Source: a virus. From it: a stretch of 40,760 nucleotides of DNA. Below, piece after piece: positions 13,356-40,760 of the stretch. A model generated the notes under the pieces. The model had not been told where the DNA came from, searched no databases, and saw nothing but the letters and a program-made list of their open reading frames with translations. The position numbers and the translations under genes were made by a program. The stretch lies in IMG/VR virus record IMGVR_UViG_3300045051_001512, positions 1-40,760 of that record. One strand, written 5' to 3'. Every line of letters starts with the position of its first letter. The first letter of the stretch is position 1.

Positions 13356-15543
13356 GCGAATTCTGGCGAGCAAAACCCAAGGTGCGACGCAGAAGATCGC
13401 CATGACGGCCGCGGTGACCTTTGTGCAGGAGCCAGCGACGCAAACCGCAGACGGGGCTGGCGCGGGCGGTGAAGCCCGGCCGGTGAAGAGCTTTGAGATG
13501 GTGGCGTACACCGGCGGGGCGATGCGGTTGATGTTCTGGCGGTACCCGGTGGTGATCGACCTGGCGGGACTGACGGCGGGGAACAGCAAGCGGCCGATCT
13601 ACCTGCAGCATGAGTACACCATGGCGGCGCTGCTGGGTCAGACCACGGAGGTGACCAAGACGCAGGACCAGCTGAGCGTGAAGGGGCGGTTTCTGGCGAG
13701 GCAGCCGGCGGCGAAGCAGGTCATGGATCTGCAGGAGGACGGCTACGAGTGGCAGGCGAGTGTGGGGGTGAGCCCGAGCCGGGTCGAGTTCGTGGATGCG
13801 GGGAAATCAGTCGTTGTGAACGGTCGAAGCTTCAACGGTCCGCTGTATGTGACACGGGCCGGAACTCTGGACGAGGTGAGCTTCGTGATGTTGGGCGCGG
13901 ACGATAACACGTCCGCCAAGATTGCGGCGGGGCGTAAAACCTCTGTTGCCGCGAAAGGAAATGCCATGACTTTTGAGCAGTGGCTGGCTGATCGCGGCCT
14001 TGTCGCGAGCGGTCTATCGTTGAAACAGCGCGAGTCGCTGGAGAAGGATTACAACGCCCTAGTGGCGGCCGGCGTCATTGCCGCGGCCGGTGGCGGTGGC
14101 GGCGATCCGGCGGACCCGGTGGATCCGGGTACTGCGGAGCAGGTCATTGCTGATCTGCGTGCCCGTCGTGCTGCCGAGATCGGCCGGCAGAACGCCATCA
14201 CGAAAGCCTGCGGTGGCAAGCATGGCGACATTGAAGCCAAGGCCATCGCCGAGGGATGGTCGGTGGACAAGACGGAGCTGGAGGTGATGCGTGCTGAGCG
14301 GCCTCAGCCGGGCAGCCTGCCGGCGGGAGGCGGCGGCAATCGTGGTGGCGGTCTGTCCAAGATGGCGGCGGCCGTGGCGTTTGCCGCGATCTGCGCGAGT
14401 GCAGGTATGCAGGAGGAGGCGATCGCCAAGAGCCTGCCGGATGGAGAGCGGCAGGCGGTGATGAACGAAGCCATGAGCGGGAAGATGCGCGGCTTCGGCA
14501 TCCAGTCGCTGATGGACTGGACGATCCGGGCGGCCGGTGAGTCGTTCGACGGCCAGCGGACCAGCAGCGAGTTCCTCGTAGCCGCCTTGAAGGCCGACCA
14601 GAAGATCCAAGCCAGTGGCACCAACGGCTTCACGACCCTGTCGCTGTCGGGAATCCTGTCCAACCTGGCGAAGAAGGTGCTGCTGGAAACCTACACGGCA
14701 CAGAATGTGGTGTGGGATCAGATTGCCGGCCTCGGCAACAACAGCGACTTCAAGCCGACGACGCGGTACCGGCTGGATTCGTCGGGCGGCTACCAGCAGG
14801 TATCGGCCACTGGCGAACTGAAGCACAGCGGCCTGTCGGAAGCCGGGTACAGCTCGGCGATCGATACATTCGGTACGCTCATTTCGCTGACGCGCAAGAT
14901 GATGATCAATGACGATCTGGGCGCGTTCCTGCAGGTGCCTGGCCTGTTGGGCCGGATGGCGGCGGTGCGGCTGGAGGAGGCGGTCTTCTCGCTGTGGATG
15001 AGCAACCCGAGCAACTTCTTCTCTACCGGCAATCGCAACCTGCTGACCGGTGCCGGGTCGGTTCTGTCGATCTCGGCGCTGACCGATGCTGAGACGCTCT
15101 TAGGCAATCAAGTCGACAGCAACGGCAAGCCGATCCTGATGATGGCGGATCGGATCTTGGTGGGCACCAACAACAAGGTGCTGGCCGAGCAGCTCTACAA
15201 GGAGTCGGATATCCGCAACAACACGGCCAATAAGGAGTACGTGGTCAAGAACCCGCACTCGAACAAGTTCCGGGTGATCGTCTCGCCGTACATCAACAAC
15301 GCCGCCATCAAGGACTCGGCCGGCGCGGCCATCGCCAACCAGAGCCAGACCAAGTTCTGGCTGCTGGGGAACCCAGCAGTTCGGGCGGCGATCCGGGTGA
15401 GCCTGCTGAACGGCAACCGGACGCCGGTGCTCGAGAGCGCGGAGACCGACTTCGCGACTCTGGGCATGCAGTGGAGGAGCTACCACGACTTCGGCGTTGG
15501 GATGGAAGACGCGGTGGCGGCGGTGCAGAGCAACGGTGCTTAA
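13330..15543 (+). CDS. Fused prohead protease-major capsid protein
   Basis: A 737-residue fusion. Residues 50-200 form a HK97-type prohead protease with His94 in PIYLQHEY and Ser144 in WQASVGVSP, the expected catalytic pair. After a linker with Gly-rich and charged helices (about 213-340, scaffold/delta-like), residues 345-737 form a Mu gpT-like or HK97-fold capsid protein (TAQNVVWDQIAG, LISLTRKMMINDDLGAF, ADRILVGTNNKVLAEQLY). An in-frame ATG at 13966 with AAAGGAA in front could give a separate 525-residue scaffold-capsid protein. The protease would then mature the shell in cis or in trans. Start chosen after the acidic portal tail. Confidence 0.88.
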   Translation: MTMTNKTNKRILASKTQGATQKIAMTAAVTFVQEPATQTADGAGAGGEARPVKSFEMVAYTGGAMRLMFWRYPVVIDLAGLTAGNSKRPIYLQHEYTMAALLGQTTEVTKTQDQLSVKGRFLARQPAAKQVMDLQEDGYEWQASVGVSPSRVEFVDAGKSVVVNGRSFNGPLYVTRAGTLDEVSFVMLGADDNTSAKIAAGRKTSVAAKGNAMTFEQWLADRGLVASGLSLKQRESLEKDYNALVAAGVIAAAGGGGGDPADPVDPGTAEQVIADLRARRAAEIGRQNAITKACGGKHGDIEAKAIAEGWSVDKTELEVMRAERPQPGSLPAGGGGNRGGGLSKMAAAVAFAAICASAGMQEEAIAKSLPDGERQAVMNEAMSGKMRGFGIQSLMDWTIRAAGESFDGQRTSSEFLVAALKADQKIQASGTNGFTTLSLSGILSNLAKKVLLETYTAQNVVWDQIAGLGNNSDFKPTTRYRLDSSGGYQQVSATGELKHSGLSEAGYSSAIDTFGTLISLTRKMMINDDLGAFLQVPGLLGRMAAVRLEEAVFSLWMSNPSNFFSTGNRNLLTGAGSVLSISALTDAETLLGNQVDSNGKPILMMADRILVGTNNKVLAEQLYKESDIRNNTANKEYVVKNPHSNKFRVIVSPYINNAAIKDSAGAAIANQSQTKFWLLGNPAVRAAIRVSLLNGNRTPVLESAETDFATLGMQWRSYHDFGVGMEDAVAAVQSNGA
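13954..13968 (+). promoter_or_regulatory. Internal ribosome site and in-frame ATG inside protease-capsid gene
   Basis: AAAGGAA at 13954-13960 stands 5 nt before an ATG at 13966 that is in frame with the protease-capsid ORF and falls exactly in the linker after the protease domain. It is stronger than the signal of the full-length start at 13330. It would allow a nested capsid protein to be made in excess over the fusion, as in lambda C/Nu3-type nested genes. Confidence 0.6.
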
Positions 15544-15557
15544 TCGGTGGAATTGAC

Positions 15558-15587
15558 GCCAGCGGGCAGGGTGTCCTGCCCGCTGGC
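15558..15587 (+). terminator. Perfect 13-bp hairpin after capsid gene
   Basis: GCCAGCGGGCAGG and its exact complement are separated by a GTGT loop, 15 bp after the capsid stop. It is followed by a second smaller dyad (15592-15612) and then a T-rich but not pure-T stretch. It may be an attenuator or an mRNA-stabilising end that keeps capsid message in excess; classical rho-independent termination is less sure because the T tract is absent. Confidence 0.6.
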
Positions 15588-15663: not shown

Positions 15664-16362
15664 ATGGGTAAGAGTGACTTTGTAGAAAGTGGTGATCGGA
15701 TCGACTTCACGCCGGTGAGTGCGGTGACGGCGGGCGATCTGGTGGATCTGGGCGGCGGTCTTGTGGGCTTCACGGACAACGATGTGGCGGCCGGCTCCTT
15801 GGGATCGGCGTCGCTGACTGGCATTCGCCGCGGTGTGAAGTCGACGGGCGCGATTGCCAAGGACCAGATCGTTTACTGGAACCCCACGGCCAACCCGGTG
15901 GTTGGTACGGCTGGTTCGGGCGCGTGGTCGGCGACGCCGGCAGCGGGCGCGGTGAAGACTGCGATCTGCCTGCGGGCGGCGCTATCTGATGATCCGCAGG
16001 TGCTGCTGCTGCAGCTCCAGCCGATCTACCTGCGCGGGCCGGTGGAGAAGCTGATTGCCGACCCTGGCAATGCCGGGGCGATCCCGGTGAACGACTCGGG
16101 GTACTGCCCGATCGTGACGGCCGGGTCTGAAACCCGGACGCTGGCTGCACCGAGCTTCATCGGTCAGGAGTTGTTGCTGTACATCAAGACCGATGGCGGC
16201 ACGTGCGTGATCACGGTGGCGTCGGCGATCAACCAGACCGGCAACAACACGATCACGATGGCAGACGTGCGGGACGTGATTCGGCTGGTGGCAATCGAAA
16301 GCGGCGCCAACCGCGTGTGGCACATCGTCAGCAGTGACGGCGCGGTCCTGTCGACGGTGTAG
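15664..16362 (+). CDS. Capsid decoration/cement protein, DUF2190-like
   Basis: A 232-residue protein after a 120-bp hairpin-containing gap. Residues 15-115 match the DUF2190 pattern: a strand, AGDLVDLGGGLVGFTDNDVAAGSLGSA split over two strands, and a late VYWNPTANP. This family decorates heads of phages with lambda-type portals. The C-terminal 100 residues add a beta-rich domain (ELLLYIKTDG, CVITVAS, TITMADVRDVIRLVAI) that resembles phage structural extensions. The start has GGAAGGACGTG upstream. It is bracketed by two strong hairpins, hinting at separate control of its dosage. Confidence 0.75.
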   Translation: MGKSDFVESGDRIDFTPVSAVTAGDLVDLGGGLVGFTDNDVAAGSLGSASLTGIRRGVKSTGAIAKDQIVYWNPTANPVVGTAGSGAWSATPAAGAVKTAICLRAALSDDPQVLLLQLQPIYLRGPVEKLIADPGNAGAIPVNDSGYCPIVTAGSETRTLAAPSFIGQELLLYIKTDGGTCVITVASAINQTGNNTITMADVRDVIRLVAIESGANRVWHIVSSDGAVLSTV

Positions 16363-31087: not shown

Positions 31088-31801
31088 ATGAAAGAAATCA
31101 ATCCGTTTGACGGTGATTCGGTGATGTCGGAGATTGGGGAACTGGTCCCAGTCATTCTGCGCGAGGCCATGGACAGCGGGTTTGATGCATTTCGCAAAAG
31201 CCGTGAATTGGATGCGGTCGGGTTCAACGACTACCGCCAGAGCACCTTGGCGAACATGCTGGCGGATCGTATCTATCCTTTTTTGATTTCGCTTTCTGAG
31301 GCTGCTGATCCGGAGGGTCTCCACCTTCGCACTCGTCTGACACAAAACGGGCGAGCGACCGAGCTTTTGATCGGTTCAGAATTTTACACGAAGGTCAAAC
31401 GAATTAAGGATAGGATTCGGCCTTCAACGCTCGATGATGATGTTGAAGTTGATGACGTGATGGAACTTCAGATCATCGAGGAAGGCATGCCGCAAAACAT
31501 CCCCACTGGTCGCGTGATGCGTCAGCGGTCTCCCAGTGCATACACGGGCACGCAGCTCACCTTGCCTGGAGTGGCGCCGGTACAGGTTCCTGATGACGGC
31601 CGCGAGCGGCTGTGTTTGGTTGCAGGCTTTGATCTTGATTTGACAGAAGAACGGATAGAGCGACATCGAATCGGACTTTATGGTTCGACTCAAGTTTTTT
31701 GGACAAGTCGTTTGCCCGAATTGGAGTTGGATGCAATCGCGAGGATATCACCGACGTTGTACGAACGAGTGACCGTCTTACGCCAAGTACGGCAGGCGTG
31801 A
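31088..31801 (+). CDS. Unknown partner of XRE-ImmA regulator
   Basis: A 237-residue acidic protein of unknown family. The N-terminal half is helical (EIGELVPVILREAMDSGFDAF, LADRIYPFLISLSEA) and the C-terminal part beta-rich (ERLCLVAGFDLDL, GLYGSTQVFW). It is expressed from a consensus promoter and its stop TGA lies 1 bp before the ATG of the XRE-ImmA gene, so the two are certainly an operon. Such pairs can be toxin-antitoxin, repressor plus anti-repressor, or stress sensors. Codon use is less GC-extreme than in the late genes. Confidence 0.6.
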   Translation: MKEINPFDGDSVMSEIGELVPVILREAMDSGFDAFRKSRELDAVGFNDYRQSTLANMLADRIYPFLISLSEAADPEGLHLRTRLTQNGRATELLIGSEFYTKVKRIKDRIRPSTLDDDVEVDDVMELQIIEEGMPQNIPTGRVMRQRSPSAYTGTQLTLPGVAPVQVPDDGRERLCLVAGFDLDLTEERIERHRIGLYGSTQVFWTSRLPELELDAIARISPTLYERVTVLRQVRQA

Positions 31802-31802
31802 T

Positions 31803-32987
31803 ATGACCCACCAAACCGTCAACCTCAAAATGCCTCAGAATCCGGCGGCCGGCGAAATGCCATTGGGTTCGAGCGGATTGATTCGCAGTGGCGAGTTTAA
31901 TCCAAACATGCTCACTACGGCCCGCGACGCACGACGGATGACCCAAGCCGAGCTCGCCGATCAGATGGATGTCAGCCAACCTCTCATCAATCAGTGGGAG
32001 GCCGTCGCGATCCCCGGTGAGCAGGTTAAGCGTCCCGGTGTTGAACAAGTCGACAAGCTTTGCAGGCTGCTGAACTTACACCCATCGTTCTTCTACATTT
32101 CCAGACCCACGCGGTTGGCAAATCTCTCAGAATTTTATCACCGCGCATTCGCCAAAGCCAAGCGATTGGATGTCAAAGCGGCGCATGCGCGGTGTGGCAT
32201 ATATGACTTGCAGGTAGATCGTCTGCTCCAGCTCTGCCCACCACTTGAGGACCGGATACCAGACATCGACCCCGACAATCACGCCGGCAATGTCGATAAG
32301 ATAGCAGCGATGGCGCGTGCACGCATGGGTGTGCCTCCCGGGCCCGTAGAGAATCTCGTTGATCTAATCGAGTCGAGCGGTGGGATCGTGATTGACCGCG
32401 ACTTAGAGATTGAAAGTGTCGATGCACTTTGTCGTTGGGTGCCGGGGTTGCCGAAGCTGTTTTTTCTCAACGGCGATAGGCCTGGAGATCGGATGCGATT
32501 GACCCTCGCACATGAACTTGGGCACACAATCATGCACTTCAATCGAGACGCTGAGATCGATGTGGCGGAGATGCAAGCACAGCGATTTGCGGCGGCTTTC
32601 CTCCTGCCGGCCACCGAGATTCGAGCCGATTTGGGTGTGAAACTCGATCTCCCGAAGCTGATGGCGCTCAAACGCAAGTGGCGTGTTTCCATGCAGGCTA
32701 TCGCATACCGCGCTCACCAGATAGGTTGTATCGACAAGACCCGTTACACGTCGATTTTCCAACAGCTTTCACGGCAAGGCTGGCGGAAGTCGGAGCCGGT
32801 TGAAGTTCGGAGAGAGTCGCCTCGGGCGTTCAAGCGCCTTCTTCGTGCCCATCTTGATGCGGGGTACACCCATGACCAGCTTGCGGAAATACTGCTCGTC
32901 AGCCTTGAGGAATTAGGACAGATGCTTGTTGATGGGGCATCTCCTGATTGGCAGGACACGGGGGTGCGAATGCGGATTGCGCGTTGA
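31803..32987 (+). CDS. XRE-type HTH plus ImmA/IrrE metallopeptidase protein
   Basis: A 394-residue regulator. Residues 37-70 form a helix-turn-helix of the XRE type (TTARDARRMTQAELADQMDVSQPLINQWE split over two helices). The centre holds AHELGHTIMHF with His237-Glu238-x-x-His241, the zinc site of ImmA/IrrE peptidases; AAAFLLPATE follows as usual. Such proteins cleave or inactivate repressors, or act as antitoxin with the gene in front. It may autoregulate the promoter at 31045. It could thus govern the lytic switch, as no classical CI-type repressor is visible elsewhere. A terminator follows. Confidence 0.85.
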   Translation: MTHQTVNLKMPQNPAAGEMPLGSSGLIRSGEFNPNMLTTARDARRMTQAELADQMDVSQPLINQWEAVAIPGEQVKRPGVEQVDKLCRLLNLHPSFFYISRPTRLANLSEFYHRAFAKAKRLDVKAAHARCGIYDLQVDRLLQLCPPLEDRIPDIDPDNHAGNVDKIAAMARARMGVPPGPVENLVDLIESSGGIVIDRDLEIESVDALCRWVPGLPKLFFLNGDRPGDRMRLTLAHELGHTIMHFNRDAEIDVAEMQAQRFAAAFLLPATEIRADLGVKLDLPKLMALKRKWRVSMQAIAYRAHQIGCIDKTRYTSIFQQLSRQGWRKSEPVEVRRESPRAFKRLLRAHLDAGYTHDQLAEILLVSLEELGQMLVDGASPDWQDTGVRMRIAR

Positions 32988-35482: not shown

Positions 35483-35953
35483 ATGACACAGACGATTGAA
35501 AAACCTGCACGGGTGGCAACCAAGGACAAGTCACGGGAGCCGACGGCCACGGAAGTAGAACTGCTGGCCAAGGCCGAAGCCTTCATCCTGGAGAACTTTC
35601 AGCGCGGACCGTCGATCGAAGAGATCGGCAAGGCGGTGGGGCTGAGCAAGTTCTACTTTCACCGGGTCTACAAGCGGCTGATGGGCATCACGCTGAAGCA
35701 GCGGATCGACGGGATGCGGATGGAGAAGGCGGCAAAGCTGCTGCTGGAGACCAGCATGCCACTGGGTGAGGTGGCGCAGGCGGTGGGCTTCTGCCATCAG
35801 AGTGCCTTCACGTCGCGTTTTCACCGTCTGTCGGGCAATACGCCGGCAAGGTTTCGCCGCGCGGCGCGGGAGGTAGCGAAGGCGATGGGTCCGGGGGTCG
35901 TTGCCCGGGTGACGGCGGCGGAGGCAGCGAAAGCGATACCGGCGGGGATGTAG
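35483..35953 (+). CDS. AraC-type HTH regulator (DNA-binding domain only)
   Basis: A 156-residue protein; AAGGA stands 7 nt before the ATG at 35483. Residues 30-130 contain both HTH motifs of the AraC family: SIEEIGKAVGLSKFYFHRVYKRLMG and MPLGEVAQAVGFCHQSAFTSRFHRLSG (split). The typical effector-binding domain is absent; a short acidic N-terminus and a C-terminal Ala/Val-rich helix replace it. It most likely controls phage or host promoters, and a free AraC domain is known for activators such as SoxS and MarA. Downstream follows a small acidic protein. Confidence 0.8.
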   Translation: MTQTIEKPARVATKDKSREPTATEVELLAKAEAFILENFQRGPSIEEIGKAVGLSKFYFHRVYKRLMGITLKQRIDGMRMEKAAKLLLETSMPLGEVAQAVGFCHQSAFTSRFHRLSGNTPARFRRAAREVAKAMGPGVVARVTAAEAAKAIPAGM

Positions 35954-36001: not shown

Positions 36002-36262
36002 ATGGGCACGGGCATGCTGGAACTGGGTAACACCGGGTATGCGGTGGAGTGGGTGAAGGTGGTGGATTTCTTGAAGCGGGCGCCGGAGCAGCGGGGCATT
36101 GCAGCGTCGCCGGAACTGGTGGCGGTGGCGATGGACGTGGAGGAGGCCGAGGCACTGGGCAAGGTCATGAGGGACATGGGCCGGCCGCGGGTGATTGAAG
36201 AGGGGTATGACCCGGGGAGCAGCGAGCACCACGGGGACGACGAGTATCAGTCGGATGGGTGA
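36002..36262 (+). CDS. Small acidic protein, unknown
   Basis: An 86-residue protein with AAGGAG before the ATG. It is acidic with an Asp/Glu/His/Gly tail (GSSEHHGDDEYQSDG). The fold appears helical (WVKVVDFLKRA, MDVEEAEALGKVMRDMG). It follows the AraC-type regulator by 48 bp and precedes the structured non-coding stretch. No function suggested. Confidence 0.6.
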   Translation: MGTGMLELGNTGYAVEWVKVVDFLKRAPEQRGIAASPELVAVAMDVEEAEALGKVMRDMGRPRVIEEGYDPGSSEHHGDDEYQSDG

Positions 36263-36286
36263 TGTCGAACAACGTGTGATGAGTCA

Positions 36287-36633
36287 GGTCCTGTGCTGGG
36301 GCCTGAGCCCAAAGCCTGCTCACCACAGAACCGGGAAACGCCAACTGCGAGAGGTACAGCCGGTGAGGGCGTACAGGTAGCGAAGGCGACAGCACGAGCG
36401 GTCACAAGCCGCCCGGCGAGAGGCGATCAGAGAGAACCCTGATCGAAGGTAGCTGGAAACACCTCTGGGCTGCTTACCGGCGGTCTGGAGGTTTGAAGAA
36501 CATGGCCGGGGTGTACACACCGTGGTTCCCCCCTCCACGTGGTACTTGGGCTTCATGCCCGGTACCCGCCCCGGCCTTCTGAGTATCTCCCCTCCGGGTG
36601 TGCCCGGTACCCCACGATTCCGCCGGGCACACC
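36287..36633 (+). ncRNA. Candidate structured RNA (nested stem-loops)
   Basis: The 396 bp between the genes at 36262 and 36659 have no convincing ORF but many stems. They are: GGTcCTGTG/CACAGaACC (36287-36295 with 36324-36332) around GGGC/GCCC; GTACaGCC/GGCGTAC (36354-36374); GCGG/CCGC (36398-36412); CGATCAG/CTGATCG (36424-36445); GGTA/TACC (36448-36478). GGCCGGGG/CCCCGGCC (36504-36511 with 36569-36576) encloses two hairpins, CGTGG/CCACG and GGTAC..GGGC/GCCC.GTACC. Last comes a perfect 11-bp hairpin at 36597-36633 that could end the transcript. TGCCCGGTACCC is repeated at 36556 and 36601. No match to a known RNA class was recognised. Confidence 0.5.
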
Positions 36634-36658
36634 TATTTGGGGGAGTTGAGAAGGACAC

Positions 36659-36925
36659 ATGCAACAACCCGACCCAAAACTCGAGACGAAGGATGGCCGG
36701 GTGTGGGTGCGCCAGTGGCTGATGGTCGACAGCAGGCCGGTGGCTGAGCACCTCATACCAGCAGACCTGCAGCAGGTGTGGGAAGAGATTTTGGCCAAGG
36801 CAGGGGCTGTGACGCGGTACCAGAGCAGCCTGACGGCCACGCTGAAGCTGCCGGGAGACCAGTTGTTTACAGGGGAACTGCCGGCGGAGTTGCCGACCGG
36901 GGACGGAAAGGCAGGAGGCCAGTGA
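36659..36925 (+). CDS. Small unknown protein upstream of ASCH gene
   Basis: An 88-residue protein with a weak ribosome site (GGGGGAG about 16 nt upstream). It has helix and strand pattern (GRVWVRQWLMVDSRPVAEHLI, LQQVWEEILAKAGAVTRY) and an acidic end. Its stop overlaps the ASCH start by one base (TGATG), so the two are coupled. Function unknown. Confidence 0.55.
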   Translation: MQQPDPKLETKDGRVWVRQWLMVDSRPVAEHLIPADLQQVWEEILAKAGAVTRYQSSLTATLKLPGDQLFTGELPAELPTGDGKAGGQ

Positions 36926-37497
36926 TGACCAAGACACGAAAAGTCGCGACGCGGAGGGGCCTGCGGGGCGATCTGCGGGCGATCACGATCAGGCAGCCGT
37001 ATGCGGAGCTGATTGCCCGCGGGGAGAAGCTGTGCGAGAACCGCACCTGGCCGACGAACTACCGCGGGCGCCTGCTGATCCACAGCGGGACCAGCCGGAT
37101 GTTTGACGGGTTCAGCGTCGAGGTGATGGCACCGCGATTCGGGCTGCAGGTGAAGGACCTGGACTTCGGCGCGGTGGTGGCCGTGGCAGATCTGGCGGCC
37201 TGCATCCCGCTGGAGGTGATCAAGGCGGGCAGGCTGCCGGCGGACATGAAGTGGATCGAGCAGCACGAACACTGCCACGGGCCGTACTGCTGGATTCTCA
37301 AGAACGTGCGACGGATGCCGGTGACGGTGCTGGTGAAGGGCCAGCAGGGCATCTGGAGCCTGACGGGCAACGAGAAGAAGCGGGTGGAGCAGCTGCTGCT
37401 GGCACTGCGGGACGGTCGGCCGACGCTGCGGGAACCGATCAGCGGGGAGACAGGCCGGGACGAGACGGCAGGACTCCAGCCGGCGGGGGTCGGATGA
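36925..37497 (+). CDS. ASCH-domain protein
   Basis: A 190-residue protein; GGAGG in front of the ATG. Residues 18-60 show the start of an ASCH domain: LRAITIRQPYAELIARGEK, ENRTWPTNYRGRLLIHSG. ASCH domains bind RNA or act as small nucleic-acid enzymes, and phages often carry them near replication and modification genes. A Cys/His-rich loop (HEHCHGPYCW) in the middle is also typical. The C-terminal tail is a charged extension. It shares the 16-bp ribosome-site block GGAGGCCAGTGATGAC with the following gene. Confidence 0.8.
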   Translation: MTKTRKVATRRGLRGDLRAITIRQPYAELIARGEKLCENRTWPTNYRGRLLIHSGTSRMFDGFSVEVMAPRFGLQVKDLDFGAVVAVADLAACIPLEVIKAGRLPADMKWIEQHEHCHGPYCWILKNVRRMPVTVLVKGQQGIWSLTGNEKKRVEQLLLALRDGRPTLREPISGETGRDETAGLQPAGVG

Positions 37498-37718: not shown

Positions 37719-38978
37719 ATGGGATTCAGGACCGGACAGATCAGCTATCGGCGGTATCAGACTGTGGGGCAGGCGCCGGAGGAGGTTTCGGGCGACGTCG
37801 TGGAGGCATTACGGAAGGAGATTCACACGCCGGGGCCGGTGCCGAAGTTGCTTGGCATGCAGTACGGGTGGTGTGGCGGCCGGGACCAGCTCGACGGGGA
37901 GATTGACTTGGGCGAGCACGTCTTTGACAACTCCGTGCTGTTCGGGCTGTTGGAGGAGTTGAACGAACCGCCGGGCAAGCTGGTAAAGGCGTTGTACCGG
38001 AAGGCACTGGTGGAGGCGGGCAAGACTCGCCAGTTATCGAAGAGTGATCGGAAGGAGGCGAAGGCGAATGCGAAGGCCGAGGCTGATGATGAGGCCAGGA
38101 AGGGCCGGCATTGCAAGGTGAGCGTGACGCCGGTGCTGTGGGACCTGGACGCAAGGGCGATCTACACGCCGGCTGGGGGGAAGCGGGCAGATCGGTTGAT
38201 GGAGCTCTTTGAGCGGTCTTTCAACCTCAAACTCTGGTGCATGACTGCAGGGGTGATCGCCGAGCGGGAGGGGGTGGCATTGAACGTGCCGCCGGAGCAG
38301 TTTGTAAACAACCCGGGCGGGCTGTTCATGGGGTACGGGTTTTTGGTGCGGGGTGGGCCGCACAACCACGCGCTGGACTTTCTGGGGTGCGAGTTCCTGC
38401 TGTGGTTGATGTGGATGCAGGCCAGTGCGAGCTCCAGCACACGCGGGGTGCACGGGTTGTGGGTAGATCCGACTGCGGCGATGACGCTGGATGACCCGTA
38501 TCAGGTGCTGGGCCGGACGACGCTGGGTACCGCCGAGGATCTGCGACCAGGCGAGCCGGCATCGGCACTGGCGGCCGGCAAGATGCCGGTGAGTGTGACG
38601 GTGAGCGTGCCAGAGCTGAGGCTCAAGGGGCCGATGACCCTGCACGCCAAGGATCTGGCGGTCAGTGGGTTGGACATCGAGGTGCCGGATGTTTTGCACG
38701 ACCCTCGGCAGATTATTGAGTACCGCCTGGAGACTCAGAGGAATGTGGATCATGTGATCCTAAATGCATTTAGCCGGTTTCTGCTTGATCGAAAGCGTGA
38801 GGAGAGGTGGAGGAAGGTGGCGGTGGCGATGCGGCAGTTCATCAGCGGCGGGCTCTTGGAGTCGGTGGAGGAGGATGAGGTGCCGGAGAAGGCGGAGAAG
38901 CAGGCGAAGTCGTCTGGGGAAGGAAAGAAGGCGGCAGGGAAGCCCGGGAAGGCAAAGCTCGCCAAGGCAGGTAGGTGA
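37719..38978 (+). CDS. rdgC: RdgC-like recombination-associated protein
   Basis: A 419-residue protein. It begins GFRTGQISYRRYQTVG and continues with GMQYGWCGGRDQLDG, FDNSVLFGLLEELNEPPGKL, VTPVLWDLDARAIYTPAG and RLMELFERSFNL, the pattern of RdgC. RdgC is a ring-shaped, non-specific DNA-binding protein that limits RecA loading and acts in replication and phage recombination. The C-terminal 40 residues are a Lys/Ala/Gly-rich tail, probably DNA-binding. The gene sits just before excisionase and integrase, far from Bet. Confidence 0.82.
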   Translation: MGFRTGQISYRRYQTVGQAPEEVSGDVVEALRKEIHTPGPVPKLLGMQYGWCGGRDQLDGEIDLGEHVFDNSVLFGLLEELNEPPGKLVKALYRKALVEAGKTRQLSKSDRKEAKANAKAEADDEARKGRHCKVSVTPVLWDLDARAIYTPAGGKRADRLMELFERSFNLKLWCMTAGVIAEREGVALNVPPEQFVNNPGGLFMGYGFLVRGGPHNHALDFLGCEFLLWLMWMQASASSSTRGVHGLWVDPTAAMTLDDPYQVLGRTTLGTAEDLRPGEPASALAAGKMPVSVTVSVPELRLKGPMTLHAKDLAVSGLDIEVPDVLHDPRQIIEYRLETQRNVDHVILNAFSRFLLDRKREERWRKVAVAMRQFISGGLLESVEEDEVPEKAEKQAKSSGEGKKAAGKPGKAKLAKAGR

Positions 38979-39271
38979 CGAAACTCTGTGATTTCCGCCC
39001 GTCAGCAATGACGCAGGAGCACGACCCGGAGCCCAGCGGAACGGCACCCGGGGCGAATCCGGGACCGAAGACAGGGACAACCACGGTCCAGCACCCGGAA
39101 GTGGTGACAGCTCGGAGAGACGGGCAGATCGGTGAGGCCGCAGGCGAAGGCATGGCAGCCATCCGCAGTGCGACAGGGATCGGACCCCACCTCACCATTG
39201 GAAGCGAAGGGCCCGGCGGTGTTGGCGGCGTGTGCCGCCGCCGCCGGGTCGGCTTGAGACGGAGCTCAGCG

Positions 39272-39499
39272 ATGGCGATAGCAAGTTTGACGACGCGGCC
39301 GGCGGCATCGGAGCAGCCGACGAGCGAGCTGATTCAGATCGATCAGGTCTTGAAGCTATGTCAGATCAGCCGGTCGCAGCTGTACCGGGTGATGGGTGAC
39401 AGGCGGGCGGGATTCCCGAAGCCGGTCAGCTGGCTAGGGGGCCGCAATCGGAAGTGGCGCCGCCGAGAGGTCATGCAGTGGATCGCAACAACGAAGTGA
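39272..39499 (+). CDS. AlpA-type HTH excisionase/regulator
   Basis: A 75-residue protein with GGAG 7 nt before the ATG. The pattern LIQIDQVLKLCQISRSQLYRVMG, FPKPVSWLGGRNRKWRRREVMQWI (split) is AlpA/MerR-like: winged HTH with the FPKPV hairpin. AlpA-type proteins act as excisionases or regulators of the adjacent integrase, which starts 1 bp after the stop. The frame is open back to 38975, but the upstream part is Gly/Pro/Arg-rich and lacks a ribosome site, so I count the 293 bp before the gene as leader. Confidence 0.8.
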   Translation: MAIASLTTRPAASEQPTSELIQIDQVLKLCQISRSQLYRVMGDRRAGFPKPVSWLGGRNRKWRRREVMQWIATTK

Positions 39500-39500
39500 C

Positions 39501-40760
39501 ATGAGTAACCCGCATCCCAATGTCAGTCTGTTTGAGCGTAAGGGCCGTCGAGGCATCTACGGACGCGTCAACTTCAACGGCGAGAGCTGGGAAGTGAAGG
39601 CCGGTGATGACCAGAAGACGGCCACGCGGACGGCGCTACTGATCAGCCAAGATCTCGAGCTGGTGCGGCGCGGGCTCAAGTCGTTGGCGGACGTGCGGGG
39701 GGATACGAAGAAGGTGTCGCCAGTGAGTCTGCTCCAGGAGCAGTTTGAGCGTAGCCTGATCGACGCGGGGGTAAGCGAGTTTCACAGGCTGACGGTGAAG
39801 CAGCGGGTGCGGGACCTGTTTGAAGCTGCGGGGATTGAGCGACTGTCGGGCGACTATGGCAGGAAAGTGCTTGGGGCGTTGGTCAGGATGCGGGACCAGG
39901 GGGCGGCGGCACAGACCCTGAAGCACTACCGGCAGGCTGTCCGGCAATTTGAGAACTGGATGGTCCAGCGAGGCCATGTGACACAGAAGCTCATCCACAA
40001 GGCCACCGGTGAGATGAGGATCAACGTGGCGGCCGACCGCAGGCACCGCCGGCGGGCGTGGACCGAGGTTGAGCTGAGGAAGCTGTTGACCTATCTGCGG
40101 AACGACCAGCTGAGGGTGGAGAAGGCCAGAGCGGAGGGGCGCCATGGGGTAAAGGGTCAGCAGATGACACCTGGGGATCGGGCGTTGTTGTATGAGTTTG
40201 CGATTGCCACGATGCTGCGGGCGGGAGAGATCAGGTCACTGACGGCAGCCAGCTTCAAGCTGGACGGCAAGCAACCGCATGTGGTGCTCAAGGCTCAGGA
40301 CGAAAAGGCACGTCGGGGAGCCCGGCAGCCCATTCCATCGGCGCTGGTGCCGAGGCTCAAGGAGCTGGTGGCACGATCGACCGGCCGGGTCTTCCAGTGG
40401 ATGGGCGAAGTGCCGGCCAAGATGCTCAAGCCCGATCTGATCGCGGCCGGCATCCTCTACAAGACCGACGAGGGGGTGCTGGACTTCCACAGCTTCCGGC
40501 ACAGCGGCGGGGCCCACCTGGTGAGGGCAGGCGTGAATGTGAAAGTGGTGCAGTTCCTCATGCGGCACAAGTCGATCAATCTGACCTTGGACACCTACGG
40601 GCACCTGATGCCGGGAGATGAGCTCAATGCGACGGAAATCGGGTACGGTTGGGTTGGAATCTGTTCACCGTTTTGTTCACAGGTTCAGGGTCAAAAAATG
40701 GGATTTACTGAGACACAAGGGAACACCGAAACGGAGGTATCGCACGGCGATGGAATCTGA
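39501..40760 (+). CDS. int: Tyrosine recombinase (phage integrase)
   Basis: A 419-residue integrase, complete and ending exactly at the window end. The catalytic domain has Arg240 (MLRAGEIRSL), a lysine in the KAQDEKARRG beta hairpin, His330xxArg333 (HSFRHSGG), His356 (MRHKSINLTLDTYGHL) and Tyr366 as nucleophile. The N-terminal part contains an arm-binding region and a SAM-like core-binding domain (about 75-165). The C-terminal tail of about 45 residues after Tyr366 is Gly/Thr/Glu-rich and unusual. It would join attP to a host att site outside the window; the excisionase lies upstream. Confidence 0.92.
   Translation: MSNPHPNVSLFERKGRRGIYGRVNFNGESWEVKAGDDQKTATRTALLISQDLELVRRGLKSLADVRGDTKKVSPVSLLQEQFERSLIDAGVSEFHRLTVKQRVRDLFEAAGIERLSGDYGRKVLGALVRMRDQGAAAQTLKHYRQAVRQFENWMVQRGHVTQKLIHKATGEMRINVAADRRHRRRAWTEVELRKLLTYLRNDQLRVEKARAEGRHGVKGQQMTPGDRALLYEFAIATMLRAGEIRSLTAASFKLDGKQPHVVLKAQDEKARRGARQPIPSALVPRLKELVARSTGRVFQWMGEVPAKMLKPDLIAAGILYKTDEGVLDFHSFRHSGGAHLVRAGVNVKVVQFLMRHKSINLTLDTYGHLMPGDELNATEIGYGWVGICSPFCSQVQGQKMGFTETQGNTETEVSHGDGI

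Follow-up and report, generated by a model that had tools for sequence, protein, structure and literature searches.

Phages are well known to hide start sites in hairpins and to have their mRNAs cut by RNases between cistrons, and the examples from T4 are reportedly covered in a review. Such intercistronic hairpins that occlude a ribosome-binding site, and such RNase-processed leaders, lie between co-directional small early genes and enclose a start site in a stem predicted to be stable, properties shared by the 396-nt gap between two genes that is described here. The gap is, however, much longer than the phage leaders, with several further hairpins, it lacks a known RNA-binding partner, and it is known here from sequence alone. 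The large ornate phage RNAs GOLLD and ROOL (Rfam) likewise resemble the gap in being non-coding, phage-borne, several hundred nucleotides long and composed of multiple hairpins, but the gap gave no covariance-model match to them even at E 10, shows no conservation, and was found to have neither a promoter nor a terminator of its own. The layout had originally been likened to large phage RNAs in size, and size is indeed what the fit with them comes down to. As to group II intron domain I and HEARO-type RNAs, the resemblance is a superficial one in sequence (a GUGUG start and loop motifs). An identity as group II intron, HEARO or twister-like RNA was rejected, with no credible Rfam match in the gap, and no reverse transcriptase or IscB was noticed when the ORF list of the window was read by eye.

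The window, i.e. the whole stretch of DNA analyzed, is a virus record of 40,760 bases (IMG/VR IMGVR_UViG_3300045051_001512, positions 1 to 40,760), with, among others, genes for an integrase, an AlpA-like regulator and a repressor (Table 1). Its terminase shares no more than about 50-53% identity with the closest relatives, and those found among genomes are mostly situated in prophages of Phycisphaerae and other planctomycetes. From this sequence relationship, it is probably a temperate phage of this bacterial group, without a near relative in the collections. For five of its ORFs (36659, 37719, 39501, 35483 and 36002), no relatives were found in the viral contigs searched.

Table 1. Coordinates of the features discussed, given for the window unless a locus is named.
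Feature	Position	Strand	Remarks
Structured gap without coding; candidate for an intercistronic leader RNA	36263-36658	+	396 nt
Upstream ORF 36002, 86 aa	36002-36262	+	No family match; coding signal in own frame
Downstream ORF 36659, 88 aa	36659-36925	+	Orphan; coding signal in own frame
ASCH-domain protein (ORF 36925)	36925-37497	+	Pfam PF04266; phrog_3193
AGAAGGA, Shine-Dalgarno-like sequence of ORF 36659	36649-36655	+	Paired in predicted hairpin D
Domain A, long irregular helix	36292-36396	+	Weak and context-dependent; z -2.0
Hairpin B1, GCGGU CACAA GCCGC, last pair U-G	36398-36412	+	Pair probability 0.88-1.0
Hairpin B2, 5 bp, symmetric purine-rich loop (GAGAGG/AAGGUA), 7 bp	36413-36456	+	
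Hairpin B3, 14 bp including G-U pairs, UACC loop	36461-36492	+	
Domain C, three-way junction, GGCCGGGG stem around two hairpins	36504-36576	+	
Hairpin D	36577-36652	+	Perfect 11-bp core, 36597-36607/36623-36633
26-codon ORF MAGVYTPWFPPPRGTWASCPVPAPAF, speculative leader peptide	36502-36582	+	GGAGG at 36487-36491
Repressor with IrrE-type domain	31803-32987		
AlpA-like regulator	about 39113-39499		
Integrase	39501-40760		
Conserved element of related phages, about 100 nt	L008:6984-7129, L073:5998-6137, L148:5459-5593, L141:5330-5466		Also in about 70 further loci

The limits of the gap are exact, being set by the stop codon of ORF 36002 at 36260-36262 and the ATG of ORF 36659 at 36659. Both neighbors are on the same strand as the gap, and the stop codon of ORF 36659 overlaps the start of the ASCH gene. 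That so long an empty stretch is unusual in this phage was borne out by the gene list, in which the gap is the longest (the next is 328 nt and the median 33.5 nt). It also proved to be non-coding, as had been proposed: scores based on the codon usage of the phage were negative in all six frames inside the gap and positive in one frame on either side of it, and GC skew was 0.04, compared to 0.20-0.40 in the flanking genes. A coding reading was rejected, with no frame displaying phage-like codon usage and the read-through frames lacking Pfam matches and credible tblastn relatives.

On the + strand, the gap has a predicted folding energy of -183.3 kcal/mol, compared to an average of -158.1 for shuffled sequences (z -3.91, with 0 out of 500 shuffles as good), while the - strand is not outstanding (z -1.5). 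A scan of the whole window with 200-nt windows placed two of the five strongest + strand folding windows in the gap; the strongest of the phage, at 16001-16200 (z -4.9) and 31301-31500 (z -4.5), are within coding sequence. In line with the original prediction, the gap is predicted to form at least seven hairpins. When the gap was refolded with flanks of varying length and in a 1 kb context, groups B and D held in the latter, while the stem of C and much of domain A gave way to long-range pairings; the large-scale architecture is not established by these models, although the number of at least seven predicted hairpins holds. Of the proposed candidate structured RNA, the non-coding nature and the strongly folded + strand were thus supported, but a distinct RNA class was not, as the collections searched yielded no homologue. 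Since related phages often have gaps that fold equally well, good folding by itself says little in favor of a new class.

The individual hairpins differ in how well they withstand changes of context. Domain A was equalled by 31 out of 1000 shuffles, and its pair probability ranged from 0.08 to 0.95 depending on context, whereas groups B (36397-36495, z -4.0), C (36502-36578, z -4.5) and D (36575-36655, z -6.1) were not equalled by any of 1000 shuffles each. In group B, the pair probability of B2 was at least 0.86 in all contexts tested but one (0.56), and that of B3 was 0.9-1.0 throughout; the G-U pairs of the latter favor an RNA of the + strand. A module, GCGAGAGG...AGGTAGC, occurs at both 36347-36381 and 36416-36453, a recurrence that may be due to chance. 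Domain C reached probabilities of 0.86-0.98 in local folding and 0-0.5 in several larger contexts. Its 8-bp stem is present as described (GGCCGGGG/CCCCGGCC, 36505-36512 with 36569-36576) and encloses two hairpins, but while both of these had been called perfect, this is true only of 36521-36525/36535-36539, the other one (36541-36551/36557-36566) being bulged.

The final 11-bp stem, also present as described and in fact perfect, forms the core of hairpin D and is extended by CUCCCC/GGGGGAG and then by UUCU, which pairs with the Shine-Dalgarno-like sequence of ORF 36659. Pair probabilities were 0.99-1.0 for the core and 0.39-1.0 for the outer part. The suggestion that this stem looks like an end signal had to be abandoned: the core is followed by UAUUUGGGGG in place of a U tract, unlike an intrinsic terminator (GC-rich stem plus U tract), and the stem extends as far as the site where ribosomes would bind for ORF 36659. 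The direct repeat TGCCCGGTACCC was also confirmed; it is situated at 36556-36567 and 36601-36612 and nowhere else in the window. A switch by means of this repeat, with the 5' arm pairing with the second copy, is unlikely because the alternative fold is 31 kcal/mol worse.

Opening the start site of ORF 36659 would require a predicted 14.0 kcal/mol, the third highest energy among the 38 starts scored, and the two that exceed it are less certain starts. In the 1 kb context, the unpaired probability was 0.03 for GGGGGAG and 0.2 for the Shine-Dalgarno region. The start-site sequence is accordingly found in a stable predicted stem, as is characteristic of leaders that occlude a ribosome-binding site, in a gap that is non-coding, folds beyond chance on the + strand and has no terminator-like site. 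As it stands, the gap is a well-folding orphan, structured on the + strand, that is most probably a cis-acting intercistronic leader. Somewhat tentatively, we suggest that it hides the start of ORF 36659 and is possibly also cut by RNase III. We infer that it would then be an untranslated folded stretch of early-operon mRNA, transcribed together with the upstream ORF 36002 and the downstream ORFs 36659 and 36925 (ASCH). Hairpin D would hold the ribosome-binding site of ORF 36659, the translation of which would be low until the hairpin is opened, be it by a protein, by the processing cut of a double-strand-specific nuclease (e.g. RNase III) or by ribosome disturbance. The ASCH gene is probably translationally coupled to ORF 36659 by way of their overlap, and its translation would be kept low likewise, while the B and C hairpins may act as spacer, stability elements or binding platform. 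If correct, an early operon would here be controlled at the RNA level in a phage of planctomycetes, the phages of which are little studied.

Several observations count against such a leader. The spacing of 3 nt between the Shine-Dalgarno-like sequence and the ATG of ORF 36659 is short, and the use of Shine-Dalgarno sequences in Planctomycetota is variable. Moreover, hiding a ribosome-binding site needs about 80 nt, and hairpin D thereby leaves the other 300 nt largely unaccounted for. Equally strong folding is seen in other gaps of the related phage group. Finally, no relative of the gap was found, and its function is therefore unproven.

The search for such relatives was carried out at several levels. 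In agreement with the original statement that no known class was recognized, none out of 4227 Rfam families matched the gap; no match in the window reached the gathering score in Rfam 15 (including GOLLD, ROOL, OLE, HEARO, group I and II introns, tmRNA and riboswitches), and searching the gap up to E 10 yielded chance matches only. Nothing was found by blastn of the gap against 50,697 phage records, and the matches obtained by BLAST against 397 Phycisphaerae genomes were all short and attributable to chance, those inspected being located inside long open frames. Three single-sequence covariance models, built on group B (R1), domain A (R2) and domain C (R3), recovered the window itself with 126, 137 and 111 bits, respectively. 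R1 was applied to 31 related virus records, 9 genomes, the larger loci and the 397 Phycisphaerae genomes; R2 was applied to 100 loci plus 258 genomes, and R3 to 100 loci. No credible homologue was identified. Two R1 matches were rejected, namely the best one in a genome (L251, 40.6 bits), which is a terminator-like hairpin directly 3' of a chromosomal gene with four outer pairs broken, and one at chance level (L252, 26.8 bits, with an E of 0.046 per genome when 397 genomes were searched). Two DNA-pattern scans of viral contigs also resulted in chance matches only, and no homologues were found of the small neighboring ORFs 36002 and 36659. Distant relatives of the gap may nevertheless exist, as single-sequence models have limited reach.

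Chance or decay, i.e. a GC-rich non-coding relic of a lost gene or an insertion remnant, with hairpins that are either functionless or weakly terminating or stabilizing, is a less likely but serious alternative. It agrees with the lack of homologues of both the gap and its two small neighbors, as well as with the exact 15-nt repeat AGGTAGCGAAGGCGA, which is common to the end of the nearby AraC-like gene (35871-35885) and domain A (36375-36389) and hints at local duplication. It is also favored by the base rate: out of 130 non-coding gaps of 250-450 nt in terminase-related loci, 16 had z <= -3.9 on at least one strand, as determined with 12 shuffles per strand and a simple gap caller, by which some of the gaps are perhaps missed genes. 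Good folding is therefore not rare in gaps of this phage group, which counsels caution. Many of these other gaps, however, are made up of inverted repeats that are specific to the phage and fold on either strand, unlike the strand-asymmetric gap of the window. Three hairpin groups that each beat 1000 shuffles in a strand-asymmetric manner speak against chance, and no protein remnant was found.

Rather improbable, i.e. possible but unsupported, is an independent phage RNA of 300-400 nt that acts in trans, similar in kind to GOLLD and ROOL and either transcribed from its own promoter or cut from the operon mRNA. The size, multi-domain fold and + strand bias of the gap are as expected for such an RNA, as is the presence of 396 nt without coding in a compact genome. 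Against it stand the absence of a promoter-like or terminator-like site between ORFs 36002 and 36659, the lack of relatives in Rfam and in the phages and Phycisphaerae genomes searched, and the loss of domain A and the C stem once flanking sequence was added. To our knowledge, the large phage RNAs known so far were also recognized by wide conservation. If it were independent, the RNA would join the few large ones known from phages. It is more doubtful still that the gap represents a new class of phage RNA, large and multi-domain and so far with one Phycisphaerae phage, that would act in trans or control the ASCH-domain operon and have relatives in unsampled planctomycete phages.

A DNA element, i.e. 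a replication origin or a packaging or recombination site with single-stranded DNA hairpins or inverted-repeat protein sites, seems quite improbable. Hairpin D is improbable by chance on the - strand too (z -3.5), and related phages have phage-specific inverted repeats in gaps adjoining replication genes; however, the fold of the gap is strand-asymmetric with contributing G-U pairs, its repeats are short and in two copies only, without iterons, and the conserved element of related phages is absent from the window (no match at E 10 in a sequence-profile search). Most improbable is leader-peptide attenuation, in which the 26-codon ORF would be translated through domain C and a ribosome at its UGA would cover CCUUCU and free the Shine-Dalgarno sequence of ORF 36659: the positions do fit, with the GGAGG inside the B3 stem (unpaired probability 0.0) and the stop codon overlapping the anti-Shine-Dalgarno strand of hairpin D, but the ORF has no coding-like codon usage and no relatives, and short ORFs arise by chance.

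The conserved element mentioned above is a non-coding stretch of about 100 nt, present in about 75 out of 160 terminase-related loci, with a consensus that is roughly GGTACTTCC (or GGTTCCTTCC) ... GCGGGAACAGCCGCCA ... GACAGAGTTTGTTTCGC.TGTCCGG. It is always on the terminase strand, upstream of the terminase by 4.2 kb (median), and in the loci read it lies between primase-like and ParB-methylase-like genes (named by eye), upstream of the latter. There was no credible Rfam match to the element, RNAalifold gave no consensus structure for 49 copies, and a hand-drawn structure showed no covariation beyond shuffles. With neither consensus pairing nor covariation, it probably acts at the level of DNA, as an origin or in packaging or late control, rather than as an RNA. 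Just upstream of it are strongly folding, phage-specific inverted repeats (L079:4391-4836, L063:4886-5200, L004:6563-6920, L124:6497-6894 and L110:2055-2401), most of which fold on both strands, e.g. AATCCTTCAC/GTGAAGGATT in L063 and CTCGAGCG in L004. The repeat words differ from phage to phage, as would be the case if they were protein-binding or origin repeats, which diverge rapidly.

Elsewhere in the window, ORF 37719 (37719-38978) encodes a 419-aa protein without Pfam or PHROG match, whose relatives (23-33% identity) are found in many Phycisphaerae genomes (70 out of 397 at E <= 1e-20). The gap and the other genes of the window were absent from all Phycisphaerae loci examined that harbor such relatives. 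The protein belongs to an uncharacterized family, the layout of which, judged by eye only, resembles RdgC. Lastly, a perfect inverted repeat at 15558-15587, just 3' of the ORF ending at 15543, is likely a terminator, and the 200-nt windows around it also fold well.
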